Shown piece by piece: positions 44,546 through 63,913 of a stretch of DNA of 64,000 nt (position 1 is the first letter of the stretch; the number at the start of each line of letters is the position of its first letter). The stretch covers positions 185,714 through 249,713 of the forward strand of contig NZ_KQ033913.1 of assembly GCF_000969835.1 (NCBI RefSeq), read 5' to 3'. This DNA comes from Parabacteroides goldsteinii DSM 19448 = WAL 12034 (lineage in GTDB: Bacteria > Bacteroidota > Bacteroidia > Bacteroidales > Tannerellaceae). The translations under genes were made by a program, and so were the position numbers. The notes below the pieces were generated by a model that was not told the origin of the DNA, did not search any database, and was given only the letters and a program-made list of their open reading frames with translations.

Positions 44546-47500
44546 CTACTCTTCAACAATAACCCTGAACCCTACATTGAACGGGCGTTGCCACGGATAA
44601 TAAGCCTTGCGGATGGCCGAGGTTGAGTATTTCGGGCGTTCACGCCAGGAGCCTCCGCGTACAATCTTCTGTTCCGGTTTGACCTTTTCCGTTTTCTCTT
44701 TGAGAGGATAGGGGAGGTAATCGGAACGGGTCCATTCCGCAACGTTTCCGTTCATGTCGTATAGTCCCCAGGGATTCGGTTTCATGGAAGCGACATCGGC
44801 CGATATCAGATGGTGGTCGTTGACTCCCAACTCTTTCGGCAGGAAGTCCCAGAACTGGCGTATCGGATCGTTGGAACGCATCGGTTTGGGATTTACACCG
44901 GTGACGGCCAGGTCGACAGTCGTACTGTCTGCCAGGTTTTCGTAGATGCCGAAGTCTGCTTTACGGTCACCGAACCAGAAGTCACCGGCCGATCCTGCAC
45001 GGGCGGCCCATTCCCATTGTGTCTCTGTCGGAAGGGCGATACGGCATTGATTTTTCTCTCCCAGCTTTTTACAGAAGTCGTTCGCTTCCTCCCAACTCAC
45101 ACGGATTACCGGCTGTTTCGGTAAATTGGCGGCATAACCGGGAGTCGTATGATCTTTCCAGGTCTGACCGATATATCGGCTGTCATGTTCGGGGAACAGG
45201 GCACCGAATTGTTCGTTCGTGATTTCGGTGGTACTCATCCAGAAACCTTCCTTAACCTGTGTTTTGAAGGCAGGTGAGGCAGACGGATCGTTATTGTCAC
45301 CCATCGCAAAAGTACCGGCAGGAATCCAGACCATATCCAGTGTGATACCCGGAGCAACAGTCAGCTGACGTGGGGACTTGGAGGCTTCGGCCTGTTTCTT
45401 TACGGCCTCTTCCTGGCTGAACGGGAAACCTTTGACTTTAATTGTTTTCGTTTTCTTTTTGTCCTTGGTTGTACCTGCGTTGGCTTCGGTTGACGAAGTC
45501 GCTCCGGTAGTACCGTCTGTTTCGTTGTTTTCCTTATTTTTCAGCCATGCTGCATAATCCTTAATCTCCTGTTGCCAGTCGACACGTACGCCACTGTACT
45601 TCTCTGACAGTTCCATGCGGCGTTCTACCTGGTTCTGGGGAGCTTCCTTTTTCAGGTCCAGTTGGGTGAATGCTCCGAAATAGGGGGCATTCAGGTCGAT
45701 CCAGGTGTATAAGGTCTGCATGTCTTTTGCCGGTATTTTTACTCCGTGGTGACCTGCTTGCAGGATACGGATCAGTTCGCTGTTATTCGCATAATATTCG
45801 TAAGGGCGAAGCACATAGATATCCGATTCCGGTCCCTGGCGGTATACGTAGGGGTGGAGGTTCAGATAACTCTGGTCGTAATGGCGTTCCAGCTTTGTCA
45901 GGATGCCACGTTTATAGGTGACCATCTGGTCTTTCCGGAAATCCGGCTGGACGATGGTTCCATTGTGGCAGGATACGCAGTTGCGGTCCAGTACCGGTTG
46001 CACTTCCAGGCGGAAGGTGAACGGGCGGACGCCTCCTTCGGGCATTTCCAGTTTATGCGGGAGGATAGTGGAGGCGATTGTGCGTTTAGGCATGGCAATC
46101 GTGTTCTGATCTTCATGGCAACCCGTGCAGGAGACAATCTCGCCGGGCATACCGGTCAGCCAGCTTCGCATCCATTGGATAGCGGCCCCGTTTTTATCCA
46201 GTGGCTGGATAGAGACAGGCGTGTTGGCCGGTATCTTGAACATGACGGAACCGTCTTCTTCAACAGGGACGGTACCGAGAATACGTTTAATATCCCATCC
46301 GCTCTGAATACCCTGTGCATCATGGTCGGAAGGAGCGAGGATATAGGCATATTCGTAGGCGAAGATGCGGAGCGATTTGATTGTTCCCCGCGGGACGCCT
46401 TGTGTGCCTTCACCTTCATAGATGTCCTGTATAAATACGGTAGCCTCTTTCTCTCCCGGTTTGATTTTCGACGGGATGATAGGCGGTGTTTCCGTTTTTT
46501 TCAATGGGATGGGGGCGGTGAGGCCTTCGCCTTCCTGCTCGGTGATCAGGGTAAGGTTGTCGAATATATCCACCAGATAGATTCCCCAAAGTGCGTCGGG
46601 ACCGGGTTTGCAGGCCACCAGGAAATATTTTTCATTCAAAGGATAAGGCTTCATGAATTGCGGCCATACACCTTCCACCAGTTCGTCTTTGATGATCGGG
46701 ACGATCGGGCGTTTGCTGAAAGGTAATTCCTGGACCATTCCTTTTTCCTCTTTACGGCTTTTGGCCGGATCGAAGATAATCAGCCGGCCGGAACGAGCTG
46801 TTCCGTGATGGCCGGAGATGATACCGACAAAACGGCTGTTGTATTTGGAGAGCGGTTTCATGTCGAATGTACTGTTCGGGAAATAGGAACCGCTTCCGTA
46901 GAGTGCTTTGTTTTCTGTCCCGTCCGGATTCATGTGCATAACAATGCGGGAGAAATAATGTGTCAGGTCAGTATATTCCCAGCGGGTGTACATCAGGCGG
47001 CCGTTCGGAATGACGATCGGCGCCCAGTTCCCGTCCTGGTCGAATGTCAGGCGATGGATATTTTTTGTTTCCGGATCGTAGGAAACGAGATTGGCAACGA
47101 CATCGTCCCCATGTACGCAAGGGACGCCGTTATAACCGATATTACAGGTGGCCACCACTTTTCCGTCCGGTAGGTAGTTGGCATCGCAAAATTCGAGGTC
47201 CGGTTCATCGACAACTACTTTTTGATGCAGGCCCGTTCCGTCTGTGTTTATTTCATAGATTTGCCACTGGCGGTTCTCATTAAGAGAGGAGAACAACAGC
47301 CGGTCTGCATCCCAGTGCAGTTGTATATCTGAGATGGGTACATCCGCTTCCGGCTTATAGATCGTTTTACTTTGAATGTCTCCGCGAAGATTTGAAAGCT
47401 GGCTGATTTCTGCATCATATCCTTTCCGGCGGCTGGAGAATAGAGAATTATAGTTGGCAACGGAGGTCCCGAGCGACGGTCCCATCGCTTTGCGTGCCTT

Positions 47501-47884
47501 ATTTCCCAGTCGATAACGGGCTATCAGGATTTTGTCTACGTCGAGCAGCGGATTAGCCAGTATGATTTCCCGTTTGAGGGCGAGCAGTTTTTCTGCTTCG
47601 GCAATCGTCTGCCGGGTGGTGTCTTCAGATAAATGCCGGTTTACCTGGGGAAGTAACGTTTCCAGTTCTTCCAGCTTTTGATAGAGCACCGGAGCTTTAT
47701 CTCCCAAGGATGATTTTGTATCGTCCAAATAAGCGCGTATAGCTTCCGGGTTTACCCAGTTGACTTGCTCTTGCAGCCGGCTTATTTGTACCTGACGCAA
47801 CGAATCAGCTTCGGCTGAAGCCTTACCCAGAATTGGGAAGGTTAACAGGAAAGAGCATAAATATGCTTTATATTTCATGTTCAT
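44546..47884 (-). CDS. Large exported HzsA-like protein with two CxxCH heme motifs and SUMF1-like domain
   Basis: 1112 residues. A signal peptide (about 1-24) is followed by a helical region (30-150), then a TolB/WD-like propeller (about 180-480: WDADRLLFSSLNENRQWQIYEI, GNWAPIVIPNGRLMYTRWEY). Next are two c-type heme motifs, CTGCH at 586-590 and CVSCH at 636-640. The C-terminal 250 residues form a formylglycine-generating-enzyme-like domain (WIPAGTFAMGD, PVIRVSWEEANDFCKKLG, ALPTETQWEWAARAG, GNVAEWTRSD, VRGGSWRE, FNVGFRV). The FGE catalytic cysteines are missing, so no sulfatase activation is expected. It resembles what NCBI calls HzsA-related proteins. It is a single gene, and its function is unknown. 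Confidence 0.75.
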   Translation of the reverse strand: MNMKYKAYLCSFLLTFPILGKASAEADSLRQVQISRLQEQVNWVNPEAIRAYLDDTKSSLGDKAPVLYQKLEELETLLPQVNRHLSEDTTRQTIAEAEKLLALKREIILANPLLDVDKILIARYRLGNKARKAMGPSLGTSVANYNSLFSSRRKGYDAEISQLSNLRGDIQSKTIYKPEADVPISDIQLHWDADRLLFSSLNENRQWQIYEINTDGTGLHQKVVVDEPDLEFCDANYLPDGKVVATCNIGYNGVPCVHGDDVVANLVSYDPETKNIHRLTFDQDGNWAPIVIPNGRLMYTRWEYTDLTHYFSRIVMHMNPDGTENKALYGSGSYFPNSTFDMKPLSKYNSRFVGIISGHHGTARSGRLIIFDPAKSRKEEKGMVQELPFSKRPIVPIIKDELVEGVWPQFMKPYPLNEKYFLVACKPGPDALWGIYLVDIFDNLTLITEQEGEGLTAPIPLKKTETPPIIPSKIKPGEKEATVFIQDIYEGEGTQGVPRGTIKSLRIFAYEYAYILAPSDHDAQGIQSGWDIKRILGTVPVEEDGSVMFKIPANTPVSIQPLDKNGAAIQWMRSWLTGMPGEIVSCTGCHEDQNTIAMPKRTIASTILPHKLEMPEGGVRPFTFRLEVQPVLDRNCVSCHNGTIVQPDFRKDQMVTYKRGILTKLERHYDQSYLNLHPYVYRQGPESDIYVLRPYEYYANNSELIRILQAGHHGVKIPAKDMQTLYTWIDLNAPYFGAFTQLDLKKEAPQNQVERRMELSEKYSGVRVDWQQEIKDYAAWLKNKENNETDGTTGATSSTEANAGTTKDKKKTKTIKVKGFPFSQEEAVKKQAEASKSPRQLTVAPGITLDMVWIPAGTFAMGDNNDPSASPAFKTQVKEGFWMSTTEITNEQFGALFPEHDSRYIGQTWKDHTTPGYAANLPKQPVIRVSWEEANDFCKKLGEKNQCRIALPTETQWEWAARAGSAGDFWFGDRKADFGIYENLADSTTVDLAVTGVNPKPMRSNDPIRQFWDFLPKELGVNDHHLISADVASMKPNPWGLYDMNGNVAEWTRSDYLPYPLKEKTEKVKPEQKIVRGGSWRERPKYSTSAIRKAYYPWQRPFNVGFRVIVEE

Positions 47885-48684: not shown

Positions 48685-50592
48685 TTATTTGTCTTCCCAA
48701 CCTTTGTTTTGAACTAAGTTCGGGTTCATAACTAACTCTTCTTTCGGGATAGGCCAGTAGTAACGGTAATCTTCCCAGGGTAATGTACCTTTGACGGTGT
48801 TTTGGTACGGACTTTTGGGGTAACAGATTACGAAGCCATCTTCATCAGCGAAAACTGTTTTGCCTAGTTCAACCTTTACTGCAGTTTCGGGGTTGGCTGT
48901 ATGAGATCCATCATACAGGTCTTGTACAGCTAAAAAGTTCATACCTCGGAAAGGAACCGTTAGTAAATTACCGGCTTTCCAACGCATTAAGTCTTCGTAA
49001 CGATGATTTTCGATTGCTAATTCGACACGACGTTCACGACGAATTTCACGCAATAAAGGGCTAACTGCATAATCGAGCTTTTCTGCATATATCTTATCCA
49101 GACGAGGATCGGCTGGTTCTTGACCAACGGTTAATTTAGCTGTCGGATATTTAGAAAAATCAAATCCTGCACGTTCGCGTAAAGCATTAATTGTCAAATC
49201 TACATCAGCTTGTGAAAGAGTTCCGTTGAGTTCATATTTAGCTTCTGCGTAATTTAAAAGTAATTCTGCATAACGGAATTCAATAGCTGCTTGTATGCCG
49301 TTTAAGGTACGGTTTTCCTCCACCATATCTCCCATCCAGTGTTTGATGACACGATAACCAGTAACGGTAGAACCTCTGTCACTGTAGCTGAGTCCGGGAT
49401 AGGTAATACCGTTTTTCTCAATATCAAGTACACCTCCTTTATAGATTGTAACATATTCGCCAGGACGACAGATTGTTTGAGTCAATCGTGGATCTCGATT
49501 TTCCAATTCAGTCCATTTCCCGTAACCAACGAAATTTGGATTTTTCTCGTAACTGTTTTCACTTCCTCCAATGTAGATTGGACGACCATCAATACAAAGG
49601 TATTCATCTACTAGCCCTCGTGTCGCTCCCATTGATTGGCGATTATCATGATTTTGGTTAAAATAACGTTGAGCTGCATGTCCAACCTTATTTTCCAAAT
49701 AATTACGTGCAAGAATAACTTCTGGATTTCCTGATACATCCGTTGCTGTAAACATTTTCCAGTAAGTTTTTTCTCCATTTTTATAAAGTGAGTATTTACC
49801 GAGTAGCGCTTCACAAGCTTTAACTGCTTCTTCTAACCATTTGTTGGCACTTTCTTGCAGACCTAGTTCAGTATGGTATTTGCGGAATGTACCTTCAAAT
49901 AGACAAATACGTGCTTTTAGGAAATTTGCTTGGTCTTTATTTAAACGCTCTGATTCCTGATTTTCTTTTGTCGGCAACCATTCGATAGCCTTATTGATAC
50001 ACATCAATACGGAATCCATCACTTCTACTCGTGGTGTACGCGCAGCATAGAGTTCTTCAGAATCAACATTCAGGTCTCGTGTTATCCAGGGCACATCTCC
50101 GAATAGAACAACTTTCTGGTAATAGTCCCATGCCTTGAAAAAATAAGCTTCGGCAGCATACGCATTTTTCTTTTCCTGACTAATATCTGCTCTGTCATAT
50201 CGATTCAGGAAGAAGTTTACTTTACGTAAATTCCACCAATACCATCCACTTGCTGCTGTGGCATCGGTTGGAACGATTAGTTCACCAGCCATACTTCTGA
50301 ATTCATTCCCTGTTTTAACGCAGTTGTCAGAGTAGACGTCACCATACATAAGAGGACTACCTGTGACATTTAATGCAGGGCTCTTGTCTTGTGCCCATCC
50401 GCTTTGATGACCGATAATGTAAAGAGGATAGAGACTGTTTAGCATTAACTTAATATCTGTCTCTGTTTTCCAAAAACTTTCATCTGTAAGCTGGTCTTGT
50501 GGATAACGTTCCATGAAATCGTCGTTACAGCTAGGTAGTAATACCGATGCTATACCAAGGACCAGTATATATTTTTTTAAATTAAATTTCAT
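48685..50592 (-). CDS. SusD/RagB-family outer-membrane lipoprotein (PUL 3)
   Basis: 635 residues. Lipoprotein signal LGIASVLLPSCND and the start FMERYPQDQLTDESFWKTETDIKLMLN are typical. YAAEAYFFKAWDYYQKVVLFGDVPW and IRRERRVELAIENHRYEDLMRWK are the TPR and C-terminal hallmarks. It partners the SusC 37 bases upstream, and the protein closes with VMNPNLVQNKGWED, a usual SusD ending. The locus should be controlled by the HTCS upstream. Confidence 0.94.
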   Translation of the reverse strand: MKFNLKKYILVLGIASVLLPSCNDDFMERYPQDQLTDESFWKTETDIKLMLNSLYPLYIIGHQSGWAQDKSPALNVTGSPLMYGDVYSDNCVKTGNEFRSMAGELIVPTDATAASGWYWWNLRKVNFFLNRYDRADISQEKKNAYAAEAYFFKAWDYYQKVVLFGDVPWITRDLNVDSEELYAARTPRVEVMDSVLMCINKAIEWLPTKENQESERLNKDQANFLKARICLFEGTFRKYHTELGLQESANKWLEEAVKACEALLGKYSLYKNGEKTYWKMFTATDVSGNPEVILARNYLENKVGHAAQRYFNQNHDNRQSMGATRGLVDEYLCIDGRPIYIGGSENSYEKNPNFVGYGKWTELENRDPRLTQTICRPGEYVTIYKGGVLDIEKNGITYPGLSYSDRGSTVTGYRVIKHWMGDMVEENRTLNGIQAAIEFRYAELLLNYAEAKYELNGTLSQADVDLTINALRERAGFDFSKYPTAKLTVGQEPADPRLDKIYAEKLDYAVSPLLREIRRERRVELAIENHRYEDLMRWKAGNLLTVPFRGMNFLAVQDLYDGSHTANPETAVKVELGKTVFADEDGFVICYPKSPYQNTVKGTLPWEDYRYYWPIPKEELVMNPNLVQNKGWEDK

Positions 50593-50629: not shown

Positions 50630-53600
50630 TTAGAATCCAACTTGTAAACCGAATGCAACAGAACGCATCATCGGATAAGAGGAAGAAATCTGATCAGGGT
50701 CAAAAAGATTTGGAATTTGAGTAATTTCAAATAAGTTATAGCCAGACAGACTTAAACGTACTGTTGATAATTTAGCTTTATTAGTCCATTCTCTAGGTAA
50801 TGTGTATCCTAAAGCTAACGTTTTTAAACGAAGATAAGCTCCATTGAAGAGGTAAGCCGTTTGAGCGTGTTGGTTTTGTCCTCGTCCTGCATACATGGGG
50901 TATTTAGCATTAGTGCGTTCAGGAGTCCACGAATTTTTATACATTTCCCAATTACCGGCAGTACCGGAACCACCCCAGAATACATTTTCACTAATCCAAA
51001 CATCTTTTTTCCCGATTCCTTGGAAGAAAATATTCAGATCAAAGTTTTTCCATGAGATGTTTCCTGTAATACCATATTGGAAACGCGGTGTCGAATTACC
51101 TATGATCTTCTTATCTCCATGATTTTCTAAAGTATTGTCTCCTTTCGAGATTTTATCATCACCATCAAGATCTGCATATCGAACATCTCCAGGATACCAA
51201 GTTCCTGCGAGTTCCGACTGATTAGGGCCGTTTAATATATATTTACCATTTTCATCAATAGTGAAATCTTCTTCTTGTAAAATACCAACTGTTTCATACC
51301 CCCAGATTTCACCCATTTTCATGCCATCGTATAAAGTATCCAATAAACCGTTGGGATTTCCTGTAAATTTGACGACTTCTGTTTGATAGTCAGATAGGAC
51401 TAAACCAACATCATAGCGGATACCGTTAGCCAATTTGTCTTTCCATTTCAGACTTAGTTCCCACCCATTGGTTCTTAACTCTCCAGAATTACGTTTGGGG
51501 ACAGATGCTCCTAATACGGCAGGAAGTTTAGTTCCACTCATTAAAATGTCTGTTGTACGGCGAGAATACCAGTCGAATGTGGCATCTAAACGATTATTTA
51601 AGATAGAAAAGTCAATACCGAAGTCTAATGTGCTTGCTGTTTCCCAAGTCAAGTCACTTGCCACAATAGCTGTTGGATTCATTCCCTTCAGTTGTTCGTT
51701 ATTCATTACCCATGAAATATAATTGGCTGCACCGTAACTTGCTATATAGGCGTAGTTGGCAACATTCTGATTACCTAAAGATCCCCAAGAACCTCTAATT
51801 TTCAAATTGTCCAGCCAATTGCGTGTATTATCCATAAATTTTTCTTCTGAAATTCTCCAACCGGCAGAGAAAGATGGGAAGAATTGGAATCTGGAATTTT
51901 TACCAAAACGTGAAGTTCCATCATAACGTCCGCTAAATTCCAAGAGGTAACGACCTGCATAATCGTAATTAGCACGTACAAAAGCACCACGAATAGCCCA
52001 ATGTTCAAAATTATCTCCTGTGTATTGCGCTCCATTAGTCATGCCTAGGGTCGGTAAGTTATTTGAAATAACATCTTCCGCTTCTCCCCAAGTTTTTCGA
52101 TATTGATACCATTCTTGATTGAAACCAGCTAGTGCCGAAACGTTATGAAGACCAAATGCTTTATTAAAATTAGCATAAGCATTGATAGTATAAAAATCAG
52201 AATGTCTAGTCTCTTCTCTCACACTTGACGGATAAGTATGTGTATTACTTGTACTAGTCCAAGTATCTACAACATAATTACGAACAGGTATGAAACGTTT
52301 CTGGAAATATTCTGTGGGACGATAAGATAATTCTGCTTTTAAATTAAATTCAGGACAAATAGTAATAGTAGGCAAAACACTGAATACAGTATTCGTCTTT
52401 TTTGTTTGTTGTGTTGCTCCATAATCTAACCATCCCAAAATATTATCTGTATATGTATCGGGGATTGGATCATTCGGTCCTGTTTTAATAGGCATATTTA
52501 TGTTACGTCCAGGTTCATTTTTTATAGCATTCCATAAATTCGTTTTTTGGCTGTTCATGTAAGGCTCATTATAATTACTGGTGTTGAATGATATCTTGGA
52601 TGCTATATCAAACCATTCGGTAATTTGGGTATTTAAGTTCATATTAACGTTATACCGTTTTTGGCTATCCGTTTTAATCTTATACATACCTTCTTGATTC
52701 TGATACCCTAACGAAATATAATAACGAGTTTTGGCAGAACCGCCACTAATAGATATATTATGACGTTGTAGAGGTGTCCAATTTCTAACACCTAATTCAT
52801 AGGGATCTATATTGGCAACCCAAGTCATATCAGTTGTACTACCTTCGTTATAAATCCAAGCATTTTCTGGTCTTGGATCTTCTATATATTTTTTCTTGGC
52901 AGCTAGTAAAGTCTCCATCCACGGAGTAATTGTGCCACCGGTCATTGCTGTTTGCTGGTTAGATGCTAATTGATGTGTATATGCATCCAAAATATCGGGA
53001 ATACGGGAAGGCGTATTCCATTGTAAATTTAAATTGTAAGTAACGGTTGCCTTGGAATCGTTCTTTCCCGATTTTGTTGTAATCAACATTACACCATAAG
53101 TTGCACGTGCACCGTAGATGGCGGAAGCAGAAGCATCTTTCAGGACAGAAATGTTTTCTATGTCGCTCGGGTTCATCATGTTCAAATAGTCTGTGTCCAC
53201 CTGTATACCGTCAACGATGATCAGCGGGCTACCGTTCTTGATTTCCCATTTTTTTCCATCGCTATCCAAGCCGATGGAAGTACCCCCACGTACGTTGAAT
53301 GAAGGCGATGCATTTGGCGATGCATTTGTTGCCGATACGTTCAGGTTGGGTACAACTCCTTGCAATGCCTGGCCGACATTGGCAACCGGTTTGTTTTCCA
53401 ATACTTCAGCACCGACTGAAGCGACAGCGCCAGTTAAATTAACTTTCTTTTGTGTACCGAAACCGACTACGACCACTTCATCGAGGGCCTGTGAGTCTTC
53501 TTTCAATACTACATTAATAACTGATTTTCCTTTTACCGGAATAGTCTGGGTTTCGTAACCCATGTAAGAGAATACCAACTCGCCGTTTGCGGGCACAGAC

Positions 53601-53788
53601 GAAAGCGTAAAGTTACCGTCTATATCGGTGATGTTACCAGTGGGGGTTCCTTTTATTTGGATGGAAACCCCAATCAAAGCTTCTCCTTTTTCATCTTTTA
53701 CGTTACCGGACACACTTACGTCCTGGGCGAACAATTGATGGGCAAAAAGGAAAAAGCCCATCAGCATGATTAAAACTTTGTTCTTCAT
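50630..53788 (-). CDS. SusC/RagA-family TonB-dependent transporter (PUL 3)
   Basis: 1052 residues. A signal peptide (1-21, ending LFAQD) is followed by a carboxypeptidase-regulatory-like domain (GEALIGVSIQIKGTPTGNITD, about 34-54), EVVVVGFGTQKKVNLTGAV, plug (FNVRGGTSIGLD, SPLIIVDGIQ) and barrel ending RSVAFGLQVGF. No STN domain is present, as expected for an HTCS-controlled system. The 5' 110 bases have only a weak -7 match (CAATTTTG). It lies 111 bases downstream of the HTCS gene. Confidence 0.95.
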   Translation of the reverse strand: MKNKVLIMLMGFFLFAHQLFAQDVSVSGNVKDEKGEALIGVSIQIKGTPTGNITDIDGNFTLSSVPANGELVFSYMGYETQTIPVKGKSVINVVLKEDSQALDEVVVVGFGTQKKVNLTGAVASVGAEVLENKPVANVGQALQGVVPNLNVSATNASPNASPSFNVRGGTSIGLDSDGKKWEIKNGSPLIIVDGIQVDTDYLNMMNPSDIENISVLKDASASAIYGARATYGVMLITTKSGKNDSKATVTYNLNLQWNTPSRIPDILDAYTHQLASNQQTAMTGGTITPWMETLLAAKKKYIEDPRPENAWIYNEGSTTDMTWVANIDPYELGVRNWTPLQRHNISISGGSAKTRYYISLGYQNQEGMYKIKTDSQKRYNVNMNLNTQITEWFDIASKISFNTSNYNEPYMNSQKTNLWNAIKNEPGRNINMPIKTGPNDPIPDTYTDNILGWLDYGATQQTKKTNTVFSVLPTITICPEFNLKAELSYRPTEYFQKRFIPVRNYVVDTWTSTSNTHTYPSSVREETRHSDFYTINAYANFNKAFGLHNVSALAGFNQEWYQYRKTWGEAEDVISNNLPTLGMTNGAQYTGDNFEHWAIRGAFVRANYDYAGRYLLEFSGRYDGTSRFGKNSRFQFFPSFSAGWRISEEKFMDNTRNWLDNLKIRGSWGSLGNQNVANYAYIASYGAANYISWVMNNEQLKGMNPTAIVASDLTWETASTLDFGIDFSILNNRLDATFDWYSRRTTDILMSGTKLPAVLGASVPKRNSGELRTNGWELSLKWKDKLANGIRYDVGLVLSDYQTEVVKFTGNPNGLLDTLYDGMKMGEIWGYETVGILQEEDFTIDENGKYILNGPNQSELAGTWYPGDVRYADLDGDDKISKGDNTLENHGDKKIIGNSTPRFQYGITGNISWKNFDLNIFFQGIGKKDVWISENVFWGGSGTAGNWEMYKNSWTPERTNAKYPMYAGRGQNQHAQTAYLFNGAYLRLKTLALGYTLPREWTNKAKLSTVRLSLSGYNLFEITQIPNLFDPDQISSSYPMMRSVAFGLQVGF

Positions 53789-53899: not shown

Positions 53900-55063
53900 T
53901 CAACTCATTGATTTTCCTGTCGAATTAACTTTTCGGTATTCCTTTGGAGGCATTCCGTAGACTTGTTTAAAGCAGGAGGCAAAATATCCGCTACTGCTGA
54001 ATGCTACTTTTTCCAAAATTTCACTGACACTTAAATCTGTTTCACGCAACATCTGGGCTGCCGCTTCTAGACGCAGATTTTTGATCATCTCAGCCGGAGA
54101 GAGGGAAGTAAGTGTTTTCGCTTTTCGGTAGAAGTTTGCGCGGCTCATACCGATTTCTTTGCAGATCATATCAATATCGAGTTTCGGGTTGGAGAAATTT
54201 GCTTTCACAATATTTGTATATTGTTTCAGGAACTCTTCGTCAAGCGGAGATGTTTTGACTCCGAGTTCATTCAGATCGATCTTTTTCTCATATTTTTTCC
54301 GTATCTGTATTCGTGAAGTCAGCAAATTCCGCACACGTGCCTGCAATAGGCCTATATCGAATGGCTTTATGATATAATCGTCAGCTCCGGCATTATATCC
54401 TTCGGTGATTTGCGAAGGCATTGTTTTGGCTGTTAATAGAATGACCGGTATATGGGCTGTTTGCGGATTTTGCTTGATCCGACGGCACAGTTCAAGTCCG
54501 TCCATTTCGGGCATCATGACATCACTGACAATCAGTTCGGGTATTTTTATGGCTATTTGTGTAAGTGCCTCTTTTCCGTTTTCTGCTTTCAGCACCTTAT
54601 ATTCATTTTCAAATTGTTTTTCCAGATAATCCAGCACATCTTTATTATCTTCTACTAAAAGCAATGTTTGTGAGATAACCGGTGTTTCTTTTTTTTCGGA
54701 AGGAATAAACTCCTGCACATTCATCAGGGGGGAGGATTCTGTCTGTTTGACCGGATTACTTACTGGCTTTTCGGGGAGAGGAAGTAAAACATGCATGCAT
54801 GTTCCGGTTGGTACTATGTTTTCCGCCCAGATTATTCCACTATGTTGTTCTACTATGAAACGTGCTAAACTAAGTCCGATACCCGAACCTGCAATCTGAT
54901 GATGTAAATCTTGTGAAGAGCGGTAGAATGGCTGGAAGATTTTTTCAATATCTTCAGATGTGATACCTTCCCCATTATCAGATACTTGTATGTGTAAATA
55001 GTAGTCTTCTGATAGATGCCGATTTTGACATAGTTTCACACGAACTACGCACTCCTTTAACAC
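53900..55063 (-). CDS. Hybrid two-component regulator, C-terminal fragment (ATPase, receiver, AraC HTH)
   Basis: 387 residues as an open frame from a GTG that lies inside the inverted segment; residues up to VVRV do not belong to the native protein. From KLCQNRHLSED onward the order is the rest of the HATPase domain (VSDNGEG, GSGIGLSLARFIVEQ), a receiver domain (LLLVEDNKDVLDY, VSDVMMPEMDG with the phospho-Asp, LTAKT, IIKPF) and an AraC-type DNA-binding domain (IGMSRANFYRKAKTLT, FSSSGYFASCFKQVYGMPPKEYRK). It lacks a kinase and any sensor, so in this orientation it is probably not translated. It is the 3' exon-like part of the split HTCS gene. Confidence 0.85.
   Translation of the reverse strand: MLKECVVRVKLCQNRHLSEDYYLHIQVSDNGEGITSEDIEKIFQPFYRSSQDLHHQIAGSGIGLSLARFIVEQHSGIIWAENIVPTGTCMHVLLPLPEKPVSNPVKQTESSPLMNVQEFIPSEKKETPVISQTLLLVEDNKDVLDYLEKQFENEYKVLKAENGKEALTQIAIKIPELIVSDVMMPEMDGLELCRRIKQNPQTAHIPVILLTAKTMPSQITEGYNAGADDYIIKPFDIGLLQARVRNLLTSRIQIRKKYEKKIDLNELGVKTSPLDEEFLKQYTNIVKANFSNPKLDIDMICKEIGMSRANFYRKAKTLTSLSPAEMIKNLRLEAAAQMLRETDLSVSEILEKVAFSSSGYFASCFKQVYGMPPKEYRKVNSTGKSMS
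55036..55047. repeat. Left inverted repeat of the intragenic inverton
   Basis: TCACACGAACTA, the reverse complement of 55466-55477. Pairing extends with mismatches to TyTCACACGAACTAyG. Read on the plus strand it encodes Ser-His-Glu-Leu of the histidine-kinase H-box. Confidence 0.9.
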
Positions 55064-55488
55064 TTATCATCAATCCGCTCGAGGATATGTTGCGCCATAG
55101 TTCCTTCTCTACGGAAGTCAAAAACACGTTGCAACTCATGCGTAAAAACACACAACGTCTGCTCTTACTCGTTAATAATCTGATGGATGTGCAAAAATAT
55201 GACTCACAGAAAATGGTACTTCAAAAAGAGAAATTCGATCTATCCGTGTTCGTTCAGGAGTTATATGAGTTATTCGTCCCGGTAGCAAAAAACAGGAATA
55301 TCACTTTTACCCGGAAAAATGAATTGCCGGTAGATTATTGTGTTTATTATGATCGTCAAGAAATTGAAAAAGTGCTGTTTAACTTACTTTCAAACGCCTT
55401 TAAGTTCACCCCGGAAAAGGGAACAATTGAAATTATATTGTCTGTACTTTCAAGCGAAAATGACATAGTTCGTGTGAGAAGTTGGTAA
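55048..55488 (+). pseudogene. HTCS middle segment (DHp and ATPase N-box) on the inverted strand
   Basis: This plus-strand frame encodes the dimerisation/phosphotransfer helix and the start of the ATPase domain of the HTCS. The only internal ATG is at 55087 (133 codons), which would lack the phospho-acceptor His; the frame then runs out at 55488 with the short foreign tail RSW. It is not an independent gene. It is the part of the HTCS gene flipped by the inversion. Confidence 0.85.
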
Positions 55489-58024: not shown

Positions 58025-58447
58025 TTATTCTTCGTCTACTCCATTGTATTTCCTGTTAAAATCGCGTAACCGCATGAACCGGGCTTTTGTTTTCAGTTTA
58101 TTTTTCAACCGGGTAGACGGGAGGAACGTAACTGTCTTAATGCGGACCTTCTGAGGTTTCAAATCTTCTTTATTCTCAACAATATCGCTGGTGATTGAGG
58201 CGCTGAACGTCCCGATATCTCCGAACCTGATATTTTTGCCGCTCAGTAGCTCCAGTTCGAATTGGGTCAGGAGGGCTTCGATCACTCCTTTGACATCGGC
58301 AGAGGTGATCGTGCAGTTACTGGAGATGCGATAACATAAATTGTTCAGGTCGATTGTGGAAGAGACCGCTTTTGCAGCAAAGTAACCTGTTTTTTCTTTG
58401 CCGGGGATGGTGCATACCATCTTTCTTGGTTTGTAAATGATGCTCAT
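58025..58447 (-). CDS. HU-like DNA-binding protein (Bacteroidales type)
   Basis: 140 residues. The layout is that of the Bacteroidales HU family: IYKPRKMVCTIPGKEKTGYFAAKAVSS at the start, a helical region with TITSADVKGVIEALLTQFELELLSGKNIRFGDIGTFSASI, and a basic C-terminal tail (KLKTKARFMRLRDFNRKY). Such proteins bind and bend DNA as small nucleoid proteins. It is monocistronic. The upstream region carries a four-unit repeat array (58526-58613), which could be its operator or belong to something else. Confidence 0.82.
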   Translation of the reverse strand: MSIIYKPRKMVCTIPGKEKTGYFAAKAVSSTIDLNNLCYRISSNCTITSADVKGVIEALLTQFELELLSGKNIRFGDIGTFSASITSDIVENKEDLKPQKVRIKTVTFLPSTRLKNKLKTKARFMRLRDFNRKYNGVDEE

Positions 58448-58525: not shown

Positions 58526-58613
58526 AGAGGTACGTCTAATTAAATTTAGAGGTAGGTGTAAATTGATTTAGACGTACCTCTAAATTGATTTACACCTAGG
58601 TCTTTATGAAAAG
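58526..58613. repeat. Four-unit 22-bp tandem array (array C)
   Basis: Units at 58526, 58548, 58570 and 58592, exactly 22 bp apart. Cores AGAGGTACGTCT, AGAGGTAGGTGT, AGACGTACCTCT and ACACCTAGGTCT are followed by a linker close to AAATTGATTT. Core 1 is the exact reverse complement of core 3; 58553-58563 is the exact reverse complement of 58588-58598. The interleaved pairing (a, b, a', b') would allow a pseudoknot-like RNA or alternative hairpins. Confidence 0.75.
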
Positions 58614-58755: not shown

Positions 58756-59202
58756 TTATTTATCTGGTAGCGTATAAAGTAAGGATAATCGGTCGTTTTT
58801 TAATGAAACCTGTATCCGGAAGTTGTCGAAGGTATAGAGAGTATTCAATGTTTCTCCGTCTACGTCGATTTCTTCTCCGGAGGCATCGGCTTCCTGCAAG
58901 GAGGCCTCTTCCAGCAACGTTGTTGCCCAATAACGATGGATCGGCAGCAGACGTTCGTAGGATATGCATACATTTTTTTCTAAATTGAAGCGATAGGATA
59001 CTTCGAATAAGCGGCCCAGCTCATCTTCTTCCTGGCAAGTCAGGGTGAAAAGCGTATCCGTTTGTTTGCTGTCTTCTATACGTTCTTTATTTTCTGAGAT
59101 GTAAAGAAGAATATCCTTATCCGTTTTATTCAGCCACGTTTGGGAGAAAAGAGCCTGGCTGCCCAAGAGCAGCAACAGGCTTATAAGTAATCTATTCCAC
59201 AT
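58756..59202 (-). CDS. Small exported protein of unknown function
   Basis: 148 residues. A signal peptide (1-20, LLISLLLLLGSQALFSQ) is present; the mature part is acidic and beta-rich (LFEVSYRFNLEKNVCISYERLLPIHRYW, TLYTFDNFRIQVSLKNDRLSLLYTLP). I recognise no family. The start overlaps the GH3 stop by 11 bases, so translation is coupled and it should act with the enzymes of this operon in the periplasm or at the surface. A strong terminator follows. Confidence 0.65.
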   Translation of the reverse strand: MWNRLLISLLLLLGSQALFSQTWLNKTDKDILLYISENKERIEDSKQTDTLFTLTCQEEDELGRLFEVSYRFNLEKNVCISYERLLPIHRYWATTLLEEASLQEADASGEEIDVDGETLNTLYTFDNFRIQVSLKNDRLSLLYTLPDK

Positions 59203-61609
59203 AAAATTCTGCGTTTAAAGGGGTTGACTTGTATGAGTTTCCGGCAAACAGGAAGAATTTTCCAGGCTCTACCACAAACTCATTCTTATCATTATACATA
59301 CCGTAAGCACGGCGGTTCACTTTGAATGTAACCGTTTTTTCTTCACCCGGTTCCAGTGCGACACGTTCGAAGCCGCATAACTCTTTTTCAAAACGGGAGA
59401 TGGAAGATGTCTCGTCATTCAGATAAAGCTGCACGACTTCATCCCCTTTTACCGAACCTGTATTTTTCACTTTGCATGTAACGGTCAGGGTGTCTCCGTC
59501 CGTGATTTTTGTGGCAGACGGTTGCAGGTTGCTGATTTCGAAAGTGGTATAACTCAGTCCGTAACCGAACGGATAGAGTTCGCCGTCTACGCGGGCAAAG
59601 CCTTTGCCGGTGGCATTCGGTTTGAAAGGAAAAGCCCAGGGGATTTGTCCGACCGACTTCGGGAAAGTCGTGGATAGTTTACCGCCGGGGTTATAATCAC
59701 CGAATAATACTTCGGCTACGGCCTGACCGGAAAATTCCCCCGGATACCAGGCTTCGACGATAGCCGACAGGTTGGCATCTTCCCAGTTCAGTGTAACCGG
59801 ACGTCCGTTGAAGAGTACCAGTACGACCGGAGTTCCGGTGGCTTGTACGGCGCGGACCAGTTCTTTTTGTCTGCCTGATAAATCCAGGTTCACGCGGCTT
59901 CTGGATTCACCGATCGTGCGGAAATCGTCTCCTACATATATAATAGCAACTTCGGCCTTTTTAGCAATTTCTACGGCTTCGTCGATTTCTTCCTTTTCCT
60001 TATCGCTCAGTTCGAAGTACATCACATCACTTTGTGGAAAATTTTTATCCCTGACGTTACATCCTTTGGCATACATCAGGTTTACATTTTCTCCCAGCAG
60101 GTTCTTCAGACCTTGCAGGCCGGTTATCACATTCGGATTATGAGAGCCGTAGCGGGAAGTCAGCGATTTGACTTCGTCAGCTTGCGGACCGATTACTGCA
60201 ATGTTTTTGAGGGTTTTCGACAGCGGGAGGGTATTGTTCTCATTTTTCAAAAGAACGATCGATTCGCGGGCGGCACGCAGAGACACTTCCCGGTTCTTGT
60301 TGCTGTTTACGATCTTATCGGCAAGTTTGGTGTCTTTTACATACGGATCGTCGAAAAGTCCTAACCAGAATTTTACATAGAGTACTTCACGGACGCGCTG
60401 ATCCAGGGTACTTTCTTCTACCAGTCCTTTTTGTAAAGCCCTTCTCAACGCTTCGATGAATACTTCTGATTGCTCAAAGAAGGTGCGGACGTTCAATCCG
60501 GCGTTCAGCTCACTGGCAACCGCTTCTTCTTCGGTATCTACGATATGGTAGAATTTTACGTTTTTGTCGATTGCCCAACTATCGGAAACGACATAACCTT
60601 TGAATCCCCATTGGTTACGCAGCAGTTCAGTCATCAGGTAGTGGCTGGCGCTGACCGGAGTCCCGTTATAATCGTTATGTGAACACATCGTTCCCAAAGC
60701 GCCTGCCTCCTGAAAAGCGATGCGGAACGGTTCCAGATGCAGTTCGTGAACTTCCTGCGGAGAGGCATGGGGATCGGTTCGTGAGTAGCAGTCGCGGCCA
60801 CCGCCCGGTATGCCGTAGATAGCAAAGTGTTTCGGTGTTGAAACAACCCGGTTGCTTTGGATACCCAATACTTGCTGGCGTCCTAATTCTCCTGCCAGGT
60901 AAGAGTCTTCGCCGTAACTCTCTACGGTACGTCCCCAGCGGGGATCGCGGGACAGGTCGAGGATAGGGGAATAGATGTTGGTATATCCCAATGCTTTGGC
61001 TTCTTCACCGGTAATGCGTCCGATTTCGTAGATAAGTTCTTTATCCCAGGTACAACCCTGTCCGATCTGGGCGGGGAAGAAGGTGGACTTTTCATGTTTC
61101 AGTCCGCGTATACCTTCGTTTGTCAGGTCGGCGGGAATACCCAGGCGTGTCTCTTCTACGAAAAAGGCCTGTACTTTGTTCATTGCTTCAGCGTGATTGG
61201 AGTAAGGAAAGTCAAGGGAGGTACGTTTCCATTCTCCGTTGAGGTGCTCGTCGATATTACCGATACCGTCTTTCCAGATACGGGTTTTCCATTCATCGGT
61301 CGGCAGTGTATCTTTAAGGACGGCTCCGTATCCATAGATCGTTCCCAGTTGACAGGTCTTTTCCTCGACTGTCATTTGTTTAAGGAGATCTTCCACCCGT
61401 TTGTCGATAGGTTGCGAAGGATCTTCATATATATCCTTCTTTCCGTTTTTGTTGAAATCGATCCAACCTTTCTGATATATTTTCTTCTGATTTTTGGGGG
61501 CATCAGGCTTTGATGCCTGTAGACTGCTTGTGTTTGCATTCAGCAAAGGGAGCAGTCCGAAAGACAGGCAAAAAAGCAGTTGCCTGGTTAATGTGTTGTT
61601 TCTATTCAT
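59192..61609 (-). CDS. Secreted glycoside hydrolase family 3 (beta-glucosidase-like)
   Basis: 805 residues from ATG 61609 (MNRNNTLTRQLLFCLSFGLLP); an ATG 33 bases upstream is less likely because it would disturb the signal peptide. GH3 N-terminal domain: FFPAQIGQGCTWDKELIYEIGRI, SPILDLSRDPRWGRTVESYGED, and the nucleophile Asp in FKGYVVSDSWAI. The C-terminal alpha/beta sandwich (IVLLKNENNTLPLS, IAVIGPQAD) and FnIII-like domain (EVVQLYLNDETSSISR) are complete. It removes beta-linked terminal sugars (glucose or xylose in most members). It lies between the GH-D-like gene and the small exported protein. Confidence 0.92.
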   Translation of the reverse strand: MNRNNTLTRQLLFCLSFGLLPLLNANTSSLQASKPDAPKNQKKIYQKGWIDFNKNGKKDIYEDPSQPIDKRVEDLLKQMTVEEKTCQLGTIYGYGAVLKDTLPTDEWKTRIWKDGIGNIDEHLNGEWKRTSLDFPYSNHAEAMNKVQAFFVEETRLGIPADLTNEGIRGLKHEKSTFFPAQIGQGCTWDKELIYEIGRITGEEAKALGYTNIYSPILDLSRDPRWGRTVESYGEDSYLAGELGRQQVLGIQSNRVVSTPKHFAIYGIPGGGRDCYSRTDPHASPQEVHELHLEPFRIAFQEAGALGTMCSHNDYNGTPVSASHYLMTELLRNQWGFKGYVVSDSWAIDKNVKFYHIVDTEEEAVASELNAGLNVRTFFEQSEVFIEALRRALQKGLVEESTLDQRVREVLYVKFWLGLFDDPYVKDTKLADKIVNSNKNREVSLRAARESIVLLKNENNTLPLSKTLKNIAVIGPQADEVKSLTSRYGSHNPNVITGLQGLKNLLGENVNLMYAKGCNVRDKNFPQSDVMYFELSDKEKEEIDEAVEIAKKAEVAIIYVGDDFRTIGESRSRVNLDLSGRQKELVRAVQATGTPVVLVLFNGRPVTLNWEDANLSAIVEAWYPGEFSGQAVAEVLFGDYNPGGKLSTTFPKSVGQIPWAFPFKPNATGKGFARVDGELYPFGYGLSYTTFEISNLQPSATKITDGDTLTVTCKVKNTGSVKGDEVVQLYLNDETSSISRFEKELCGFERVALEPGEEKTVTFKVNRRAYGMYNDKNEFVVEPGKFFLFAGNSYKSTPLNAEFYVE

Positions 61610-61645
61610 GATTATTTTATTATATATGCAAATTATATGCAAAAC

Positions 61646-63913
61646 CTATTCAATAACATACCAATTGTATCCTTTTGCTGGTATTGTGATGGGGATTGTA
61701 ACGGAATAGTCACGTTCCAATACATATACCTGCACATTCTGATCCTGTTCCTTTACAGTCACTTTGTCGGTCAGTCCGGTGTAATAAAGAGGTATTTTGA
61801 TCTCTTTGCGGATGGGAACATCCAGCGGGTTATACACCGAGATGAATCCTTTCTGTTTCAATGAAGGATTTACGTGCATGATACCGTCCCAGTCCTGTCC
61901 GTCGGGACGGCGCAGGTGGATGATATCGGAATCGAGTATCTGACGGTATTTTTTATAGAAAGCAACCCATTGGTTGACCAGTTCTTTGGTCGCTTCCGTA
62001 TCGTAGAGGCGCGGACCACGGTAACAGGCTTGCACACCGGCCCCGAAGAGGTTCCGTAGACGCGTTTCGTAATGGTCGAGGTGCTCGTTCAACGGTTCGA
62101 TTGTGGCCGCTTCGCCTCCTCCGTGATATTGGGTGAGGGGAACGAACATGAAACCCATGCTGGGCGTTTTCTGCCAGGTTCCGTCATAGATATTCTGTCG
62201 TTCGATAATTTCCTGATAGGCGCGAGGCAGCGACCAGTTGGTCTCTACATATCCCATCGGTGTTTTATTGGAGCCGCTCAGGAAATACCAGTCGGGGACG
62301 TTCAGGTAAACACCGTTTGCCCGGCACCAGCGATAGAATCGGTTGATTTTCTTCCACTGTTTCCACTGGGAGTCGAGATAGCCTTTGTGGCCGCTGTGTG
62401 AAGTGGAGGCGCAAGGGTCGCCGGGATATGAACCGTCGTTTTCGAAGACATTCATTCCGGTGGTGGTGAAGAAGTTCTGTAATTTACGGAAGTAGGTGTC
62501 TCCCCAATCGGATGAGATACAGGGAGATACGCCAAAGCGGCTGCCTTCTTCGCGTGTTTTGGCCGGTTTTCCGGTTTTATGACTGATTGCGGCGTCTTGT
62601 TCTTTAGCTCCGCGGCTTGCCAGGAGGGAATAACCGCCGATGGCAATACCTTTCCCGGCAGCGTAGTCGCTAAGTTCTTTCATTCGTTGCAGATAGGCGG
62701 CTGAGTCATTTTCGATTTTGAATCCGCTACCGAAGGTCATAATGACCATTTCGAAACCAACAGCGGCACATTGGTCGATGGCTTGCTTCACCGCTTCGCT
62801 GTCCGATTGGCGGACGTGCATGAAGATAGGGTTTTCCTGTGTCCAGGGAGCCATCATACGCCAGAATTTACATTCTGCCAGTCCGCGCCGTTCCCGGTCG
62901 CTGGCATCACGCAGCATTTCGAAAGCCGTGCAGGATTCAAAGGTGTCGCCGGGTTTGATTTCCAAACCGGGACCGAGTAGGGGAGTGACTTCCAGGCGTG
63001 CCGGTTTATATTGACCATAATAGCGGATACCGGTAAATTCGTATTCCGGATGATCGAATACCCAACGGACAGCCGGATTGTCTTTCATCGCTTCCATATC
63101 GCCGCCCATGGCATAGTCGGTTACGACGAACAGTTGGGTGAAGCGGTCGATATAATCGCGCGGCGCATCGGTTTGCACGGGTTGTTTACGGAAATCTTTT
63201 GTGTAAGCACCTGCTTCCTGTGCCATCATGCGGACTTCATGCGGTTCGCCGTAATGTACTTTCGGAGCCGTTTCGACCAAAGCGAGTATTTCTGACTTGA
63301 AAGAATCGAGTGTAACGGGCATTGTTCCTTTATTGTCGATCTCGATCCATTTGGCCAGGATAGGGGCACCGTTGTACAGTTCGTAAATGACACGTATTTT
63401 CAGGTCTTTGCAGTCCTGAGGGGCAGTTGCCGGAGCCTGGTAATTGAAGGTGATCCGTTTTCCCGGGGCAGGCCAGGGGTATAAGTTGGATATCCATTGG
63501 CTGTTGGGTTTCCAGGGAAAGCGTTCTTTGCTTTCGCTTATCTGATAGTCTACCAACATGAATGCTGAATCGCAAGCCTGCATATTGTTGATAAATTCTT
63601 CTGTCAGGAAGTTATTGACCGGCTGTCCGGTCAGGCCTCCGACAGGATATTCTTTTCCGTTGATGACAAGTAAGGCTTCGGGACGGACGGCACGCAGCTC
63701 GTTTTGCCCGGTCATCAGGTTGTCAAAGGCGATGGTCGCTGCATTGGGAGCAAGCAGGAATGTACGGCGAAGGAGGCCGTTCGTTAATTCGAGACGTTTC
63801 CCTTCATGGGTTGTTTGTGCTGTCGATTTGTAAGAGGAACCGTCGATCAGCCAATCCTGGGCGGATAAACTGAATGTGGAGAGGAGAGATAAAAATACTA
63901 GAAAATGTTTCAT
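61646..63913 (-). CDS. Secreted clan GH-D-like (alpha-galactosidase-like) glycoside hydrolase
   Basis: 755 residues with a signal peptide (1-18, ending SLSAQ). An N-terminal beta-sandwich (about 25-340) is followed by a TIM barrel (about 350-620). Barrel motifs similar to GH36/GH27-type enzymes: GFEMVIMTFGSGF, KGIAIGGYSLLASRG, and the candidate nucleophile Asp in NVFENDGSYPGDPC; the C-terminal part is a beta domain. Similar Bacteroidota proteins are annotated as alpha-galactosidase, but this one is divergent and I do not assign a family or linkage. It is the first gene of a three-gene leftward operon. The promoter upstream was not found. Confidence 0.65.
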   Translation of the reverse strand: MKHFLVFLSLLSTFSLSAQDWLIDGSSYKSTAQTTHEGKRLELTNGLLRRTFLLAPNAATIAFDNLMTGQNELRAVRPEALLVINGKEYPVGGLTGQPVNNFLTEEFINNMQACDSAFMLVDYQISESKERFPWKPNSQWISNLYPWPAPGKRITFNYQAPATAPQDCKDLKIRVIYELYNGAPILAKWIEIDNKGTMPVTLDSFKSEILALVETAPKVHYGEPHEVRMMAQEAGAYTKDFRKQPVQTDAPRDYIDRFTQLFVVTDYAMGGDMEAMKDNPAVRWVFDHPEYEFTGIRYYGQYKPARLEVTPLLGPGLEIKPGDTFESCTAFEMLRDASDRERRGLAECKFWRMMAPWTQENPIFMHVRQSDSEAVKQAIDQCAAVGFEMVIMTFGSGFKIENDSAAYLQRMKELSDYAAGKGIAIGGYSLLASRGAKEQDAAISHKTGKPAKTREEGSRFGVSPCISSDWGDTYFRKLQNFFTTTGMNVFENDGSYPGDPCASTSHSGHKGYLDSQWKQWKKINRFYRWCRANGVYLNVPDWYFLSGSNKTPMGYVETNWSLPRAYQEIIERQNIYDGTWQKTPSMGFMFVPLTQYHGGGEAATIEPLNEHLDHYETRLRNLFGAGVQACYRGPRLYDTEATKELVNQWVAFYKKYRQILDSDIIHLRRPDGQDWDGIMHVNPSLKQKGFISVYNPLDVPIRKEIKIPLYYTGLTDKVTVKEQDQNVQVYVLERDYSVTIPITIPAKGYNWYVIE

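Follow-up and report, generated by a model that had tools for sequence, protein, structure and literature searches.

A probably invertible segment with one end in the H-box codons of a Parabacteroides polysaccharide-utilization sensor gene occurs in both orientations

A 442-bp segment inside a hybrid two-component sensor (HTCS) gene of Parabacteroides goldsteinii is bounded by 12-bp inverted repeats, one of which encodes the Ser-His-Glu-Leu (SHEL) stretch of the kinase H-box, and both orientations of the segment are represented in public sequences. A programmed intragenic inverton is by far the most likely explanation of the locus, with the segment probably flipped by a tyrosine recombinase acting in trans as an on/off switch of the regulator. 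The gene was studied in a stretch of 64,000 nucleotides, referred to here as the window; its relevant features are listed in Table 1.

Table 1. Features of the HTCS locus and its neighbourhood, in window coordinates
Feature	Position	Strand	Remarks
SusD-like lipoprotein	48685..50592	-	
SusC-like TonB-dependent receptor adjoining the HTCS	50630..53788	-	putative regulation target
HTCS C-terminal part, 387-aa ORF from GTG	53900..55063	-	rest of HATPase, receiver, AraC-type HTH
Recombination-site-like dyad at left OFF junction, CATAGTTT-CACAC-GAACTACG	55029..55049	+	14/16 to consensus
Inverted-repeat arm TCACACGAACTA	55036..55047	+	left junction in captured OFF state
Interior, 418 bp, captured inverted (OFF)	55048..55465	+	flipped back, most of DHp domain and start of ATPase domain
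Inverted-interior ORF, 133 aa	55087..55488	+	C-terminal end is the OFF-junction signature VRVRSW
HTCS N-terminal part, 838 aa	55433..57949	-	propeller, Y_Y_Y, start of HisKA region
Right OFF junction, CATAGTTC-GTGTG-AGAAGTTG	55464..55484	+	one half-site good, one poor
Inverted-repeat arm, TCACACGAACTA on minus strand	55466..55477	-	codes Ser-His-Glu-Leu of H-box
Glycoside hydrolase family 3 enzyme	59192..61642	-	same syntenic block

The HTCS gene is captured in three pieces, with the N-terminal and C-terminal parts on the minus strand and the middle part on the plus strand. The arms at the two joints (55036-55047 and 55466-55477) are perfect complements over 12 bp, separated by 418 nt, and TCACACGAACTA has no other copy in the window. 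This arrangement, described in the first-pass annotation, was confirmed from the sequence, and the annotation's further claim, that inversion of 55036-55477 restores a single frame, was reproduced by script: the flipped DNA carries 1350 codons (stop included) from 57949 to 53900 without internal stops, and its junctions read FTNFSHELRTPL and ENDIVRVKLCQNR, as claimed. The inverted repeats are therefore located inside one coding sequence, whose product is altered by the inversion. The restored protein is a hybrid two-component sensor of 1349 residues, in which the codon of His826 (55472-55474) lies within the SHEL-coding repeat copy and the second copy corresponds to codons 968-972, in the ATPase domain. 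The captured N-terminal part terminates 12 residues past His826, which is 10 past SHEL and not 10 past the His, as had originally been counted.

A perfect inverted repeat of such length is, taken alone, not rare here; the same 4.7 kb contain a 13-nt pair (56468/57927) and another 12-nt pair (57096/57263). What chance cannot account for is that flipping the segment repairs the frame and that the repaired protein is known from a separate source, as P0001. This natural ON form combines propeller repeats, Y_Y_Y, HisKA (817-881), HATPase (930-1059), receiver and AraC-type HTH domains (Pfam) in one chain, as expected of an HTCS, and the position of its HisKA profile corroborates the assignment of one repeat copy to the H-box.

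The occurrence of the two forms in public sequences was analysed with three queries, namely the restored protein (best 120 of 4887 matches examined), the C-terminal part (best 120 of 7695) and the OFF middle ORF (34 matches in all), with counts that refer to sequence clusters and not to population frequencies. P0001 shares 1343 of 1349 residues with the inverted window protein (6 differ). The ON form P0002, from Parabacteroides sp. HGS0025, agrees at 1335 of 1348 residues with the OFF form of a second genome, G042. Three further ON/OFF pairs were observed: P0003 and P0019 (99.2% over 827 aa), P0005 and P0124 (99.2% over 379 aa), and P0009 and P0255 (100% over 130 aa). Both orientations thus occur in nature, in five lineages (ON P0001, P0002, P0003, P0005 and P0009; OFF, respectively, the window, G042, P0019, P0124 and P0255) and with at least 99% identity within each, which supports the earlier reading of the locus as an intragenic inversion switch.

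The OFF joints themselves were also recognizable. Among the full-protein matches listed, 3 of 120 (P0019, P0021 from Parabacteroides segnis, and P0026) are cut right after SHEL, and among the C-part matches listed another 3 of 120 (P0122, P0123 and P0124) begin with MLKECVVRVKL, the window's own OFF start; P0121, P0125 and P0127 start at an internal MKL and were left out of this count. The VRVRSW junction is present in 23 of the 34 middle-ORF matches, of which 19 end exactly there and 4 read through. One of the 23, P0241, is the window's own ORF, and without it the figure is 22 of 33.

The exact recurrence of this join bears on two alternative explanations. Short-read assemblers can in general mis-join repeat pairs, and the OFF orientation might accordingly be an unreal product of an assembler misled by the short inverted repeat. 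Such an artefact is highly improbable, given the 22 of 33 independent matches, the same OFF join on a 4.48-Mb contig of G042, and a repeat of 12 bp, shorter than any sequencing read. It might also be supposed that a fixed inversion broke the gene, and that its three captured pieces are a decaying pseudogene; against this stand the near-identical intact form P0001 (1343/1349), the intactness of the three pieces, each under apparent purifying selection (see below), and the same join across many clusters, so that decay is very hard to credit. Of the outcomes that the first-pass annotation had named as fatal, two (an assembly error, and a split gene fixed and decaying) do not hold: both orientations are public, and G042 displays the same repeat at the same spacing.

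The G042 locus was the sole match to the DNA of the gene among 123 family genomes (1e-50). A protein search of 38 genus genomes (1e-150) gave matches in 10, of which G042 alone carries the gene of this clade, the others being at most 49% identical. A search of genome contigs with the C-terminal part returned at least 80 loci, with best-segment identities of 43% or less among the matches listed, and the plasmid collection gave no match. G042 is probably a Parabacteroides, judging from kinship and the source names on P0002 and P0021. Its locus has the same arms at a spacing of 430 bp, is likewise OFF (G042:C1:323239-327276, where the frame of the gene is interrupted by 12 internal stops, 13 being present in total), and TCACACGAACTA occurs in the 6.8-Mb genome only at the two HTCS places. 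The stop-free open frame of 1358 aa that the protein search gave for both G042 matches disagrees with this sequence and was disregarded. The surrounding block is syntenic with the window and maintains the same order of the polysaccharide-utilization locus (PUL), with identities of 84% for SusD, 84% for SusC, 90% for the GH3 enzyme and 93% for 61646-63913.

Between the two genomes the HTCS gene shows 77% nucleotide identity. The dN/dS values (NG86) were 0.049 for the N-terminal part, 0.078 for the interior and 0.036 for the C-terminal part, rough figures in view of saturated dS. They point to purifying selection on all three parts, so that each appears to be maintained at the protein level even with the OFF orientation in both genomes. 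The longest run of identical codons in the gene (14) coincides with site A, the recombination site at the H-box; since a 13-codon run occurs elsewhere, at 981, these runs give a faint hint of constraint at the DNA level.

On the gene strand in the ON state, site A reads ACCAACTTC-TCACACG-AACTACGCA, and the second site, site B, reads GACATAGTT-CGTGTGA-AACTATGTC, a perfect 9-bp dyad around a 7-bp centre. A search of G042 with the arms of site B revealed no excess (12 sites versus 10 for the control). Nine of the 12 sites have C and G at the unspecified centre positions, which led to the pattern TAGTTC-N5-GAACTA, found 60 times in G042 compared with 17 for the reversed control. Eleven close pairs were evident among the 50 G042 sites listed, and in all 11 the spacers are exactly complementary. 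When 15 G042 loci were tried, the site was at the expected place in 14; of these, 13 are accompanied at a distance of 169-488 bp by an inverted partner with a complementary spacer, versus 14 of 600 random spacers.

The longer consensus CATAGTTC-N5-GAACTATG, with up to 2 mismatches, was then counted against its control in individual genomes, giving 30 versus 0 in G042, 26 versus 1 in G071, 25 versus 0 in G046, 16 versus 1 in G048, 11 versus 0 in G047, 10 versus 3 in G045 and 4 versus 3 in G034. The consensus therefore exceeds its control in 6 of 7 genus genomes (less clearly in G045, with G034 at 4 versus 3), and the G042 sites are mostly inverted pairs with complementary spacers specific to each pair. 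No excess was observed in Bacteroides oleiciplenus (2 versus 2).

Site B in the ON state matches this consensus at 15 of 16 positions, the best score in the 64 kb (next place 12/16) and one reached by none of 60 simulated sequences; the score is partly circular, as the consensus was derived starting from site B, a circularity that does not affect the pairing and control tests. The best match in the captured window is the dyad at 55029-55049, whose score is equalled by 1 of 60 simulated sequences. Site B is thus a near-perfect member of the genome-wide family of inverton-like sites. At the HTCS locus, as in the family, an inverted partner with a complementary spacer lies within 1 kb (CACAC and GTGTG, 430 bp apart). 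The two half-sites of site A are unequal: the inner half, GAACTACG, matches at 7 of 8 positions, and the outer half is poor at 3 of 8 (core 1/6). That outer half is weaker than in the 13 tested partners, whose other half matches at 4 or more of 6, and site A may therefore be a poor site or one used by a different enzyme. The weak outer half also explains why a scan of G042 for site pairs, run with at most 2 mismatches, passed over the HTCS locus (L191), where it recorded 3 sites but no pair; its silence on other loci accordingly carries limited weight. The shorter core AGTTC-N5-GAACT, with at most 1 mismatch, has 3 matches in the window versus 1.89 expected, which is no excess. A repeat class of the form AGTTC-N5-GAACT may exist in B. 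fragilis and was not used as evidence.

The second-arm peptide is distributed quite differently from SHEL, which is common across the kinases of these relatives. At the peptide level, [ILV]VRV[KRNSTIM], able to encode the arm, was found in 9 of 97 full-length relatives among the matches listed (P0001-P0009), in addition to the window; P0097, which is short, and P0102-P0120 were left out, and the three OFF forms lack the region. The peptide thus appears to be confined to this clade. The excluded P0102-P0120 are paralogous HTCS proteins of P. goldsteinii type, 42-44% identical, with many differing truncations in the databases, and two of them, P0108 and P0109, are 1034-aa clusters found in 56 and 53 contigs. 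They were considered as further inversions and rejected: SHELRTPL is kept, and the breaks lie elsewhere and resemble frameshifts or cut ends. The possibility that other HTCS genes use their H-boxes in the same manner was similarly discarded, as among 31 H-boxes in 146 loci a 12-nt inverted match was present only in that of G042, with 8 nt in 6 and none in 24.

These distributions are also relevant to a third alternative, which accepts a genuine and recurring inversion and dispenses with a dedicated site-specific recombinase. In this view the 12-bp repeat arose by chance and is preserved only because the protein must conserve SHEL and DIVRV, and recombination between its copies depends on short repeats in general or is of low specificity. 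The degenerate half-site at site A is compatible with such a process, as is the fact that no enzyme was pinned down in the G042 integrase neighbourhoods examined, and a statement on inverton events in the available portion of PMC12548429 was counted in its favour. The third alternative is nonetheless unlikely: no other place in the 64 kb matches the inverton-like site family of this genus as well as site B does, DIVRV is peculiar to the clade (9/97 among the matches listed) and so is not maintained by a constraint common to kinases, and the same join recurs across many clusters.

No recombinase was detected in the window, where 43 ORFs (the likely genes from 86 ORFs of at least 100 aa) were scanned with Pfam; no recombinase gene is thus present beside the segment among them. 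G042 contains 66 matches to PF00589, one of them below the cut-off, the nearest being ∼40 kb from the HTCS locus. A recombinase encoded beside family sites in G042 was rejected, as no site pair occurs in 19 integrase neighbourhoods. From these two results, the enzyme likely acts in trans, from elsewhere in the genome. It would be of the tyrosine type, because the paired sites share the whole 5-bp spacer in addition to the arms; strand exchange over a spacer of several bases fits tyrosine recombinases, whereas the overlap of serine recombinases is 2 bp.

Shared recombinases were sought by comparing 47 integrase-like ORFs of G042 (selected by a motif filter) with 20 regions each from G047 (26 PF00589 matches) and G048 (23). 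Two ORFs exceeded 80% of the length with at least 60% identity in both genomes: L145 (410 aa; 98% and 82%) and L141 (387 aa; 74% and 73%). The site motif is absent within 3.1-3.5 kb of either, and both are leads only. By eye, L145 resembles the integrases of mobile elements. This 410-aa tyrosine recombinase of G042, with counterparts L199 in G047 and L222 in G048, shows a closer resemblance between G042 and G047 than do the other recombinases in the comparison, and the 98% likeness may reflect either recent transfer or strong constraint.

In terms of function, the ON orientation would provide the intact 1349-residue sensor and the OFF orientation a split gene, and flipping would likely switch the sensor on or off in individual cells. 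In OFF cells transcription would still enter the gene, and the predicted protein would end 12 residues past the phospho-acceptor His, with presumed loss of the receiver, the DNA-binding domain and kinase activity; the adjoining susC/susD pair, which serves glycan uptake, would then no longer be induced. An in-frame GTG lies at 55063 in the OFF C-terminal part, and a second one is preceded, at a distance of 12 nt, by an AAAGGAG located in the inverted DNA. A broader scheme may be put forward tentatively, in which one trans-acting Parabacteroides tyrosine recombinase flips segments genome-wide as well as the sensor-kinase core, through the site in the H-box, and in which the OFF state may yield a soluble receiver-HTH fragment. 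If the enzyme were shared in this manner, nutrient sensing would join the stochastic programme of the other invertons; if a GTG-started receiver-HTH fragment, with its start provided by inverted H-box DNA, were produced in the OFF state, the flip would be a rewiring and not a plain off. A switch of the kind proposed for this locus would carry phase variation in gut Bacteroidales beyond surface promoters to the signal transduction that determines which glycan a cell can sense, and would place a recombination site in that motif of a histidine kinase which is under the tightest constraint. The locus offers a test case: the junction is known exactly, natural alleles of both orientations are available from several lineages, and the search for the enzyme can start from a family of sites spread over the genome.

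Intragenic invertons, Bacteroidales included, were reportedly described by Chanin et al. in 2024 (Nature 634:234). The present segment resembles them in its short inverted repeats within coding sequence and in an inversion that alters the product; it differs in that the repeat consists of H-box codons of a PUL sensor-regulator, that both orientations are found in five lineages, and that one site belongs to a genus-wide inverton-like family. In Bordetella, phase variation reportedly stems from a frameshift within a two-component gene (Stibitz, 1989); the sensor-regulator gene would itself be the switch there too, through a frameshift and not through a site-specific inversion as proposed here. 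Two reports on C. difficile appear to concern the same system. In these reports, the C. difficile two-component system is phase-variable behind the invertible element Cdi6 (PMC5903667; PMC6837544), so that DNA inversion renders signal transduction phase-variable in both cases, with the C. difficile segment upstream of the genes and the present one inside the kinase. Within-gene inversions in Bacteroidales are reported in the accessible portions of PMC12632263 and PMC12548429, and those of PMC10939037 refer to intragenic regions of genes, regulatory ones included. According to the available part of PMC4747536, Mpi, Tsr0667 and Tsr19/BF2766 of B. fragilis are master invertases of invertible promoters and shufflons and act in trans; there, as suggested here, a single enzyme is able to invert numerous segments that lie far apart and are flanked by inverted repeats, but the B. 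fragilis segments move promoters or swap genes, whereas the present flip breaks the coding sequence of a regulator. Intragenic invertons are thus already known, and the apparently new element is a recombination site formed by the codons for the H-box in a PUL sensor, for which no precedent was found in the literature searched, though earlier inverton tables may list this locus.

The HTCS gene is located beside susC/susD and glycoside hydrolases, and the adjacency of the susC/susD pair reported in the first-pass annotation held on inspection. HTCS genes usually control the adjacent susC/susD, and by analogy this sensor probably regulates its neighbours. Just upstream of the HTCS is a gene for an HU-HIG DNA-binding protein (58025-58447), for which tblastn (1e-5) gave no match in the 20-kb block of G042 that is in other respects syntenic with the window. 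A 20-pair hairpin (58553-58598) is situated upstream of both the HTCS and the HU-like genes. Beside the PUL, 44546-47884 encodes a protein that contains sulfatase-modifying-factor (FGE) and hydrazine-synthase alpha middle domains.
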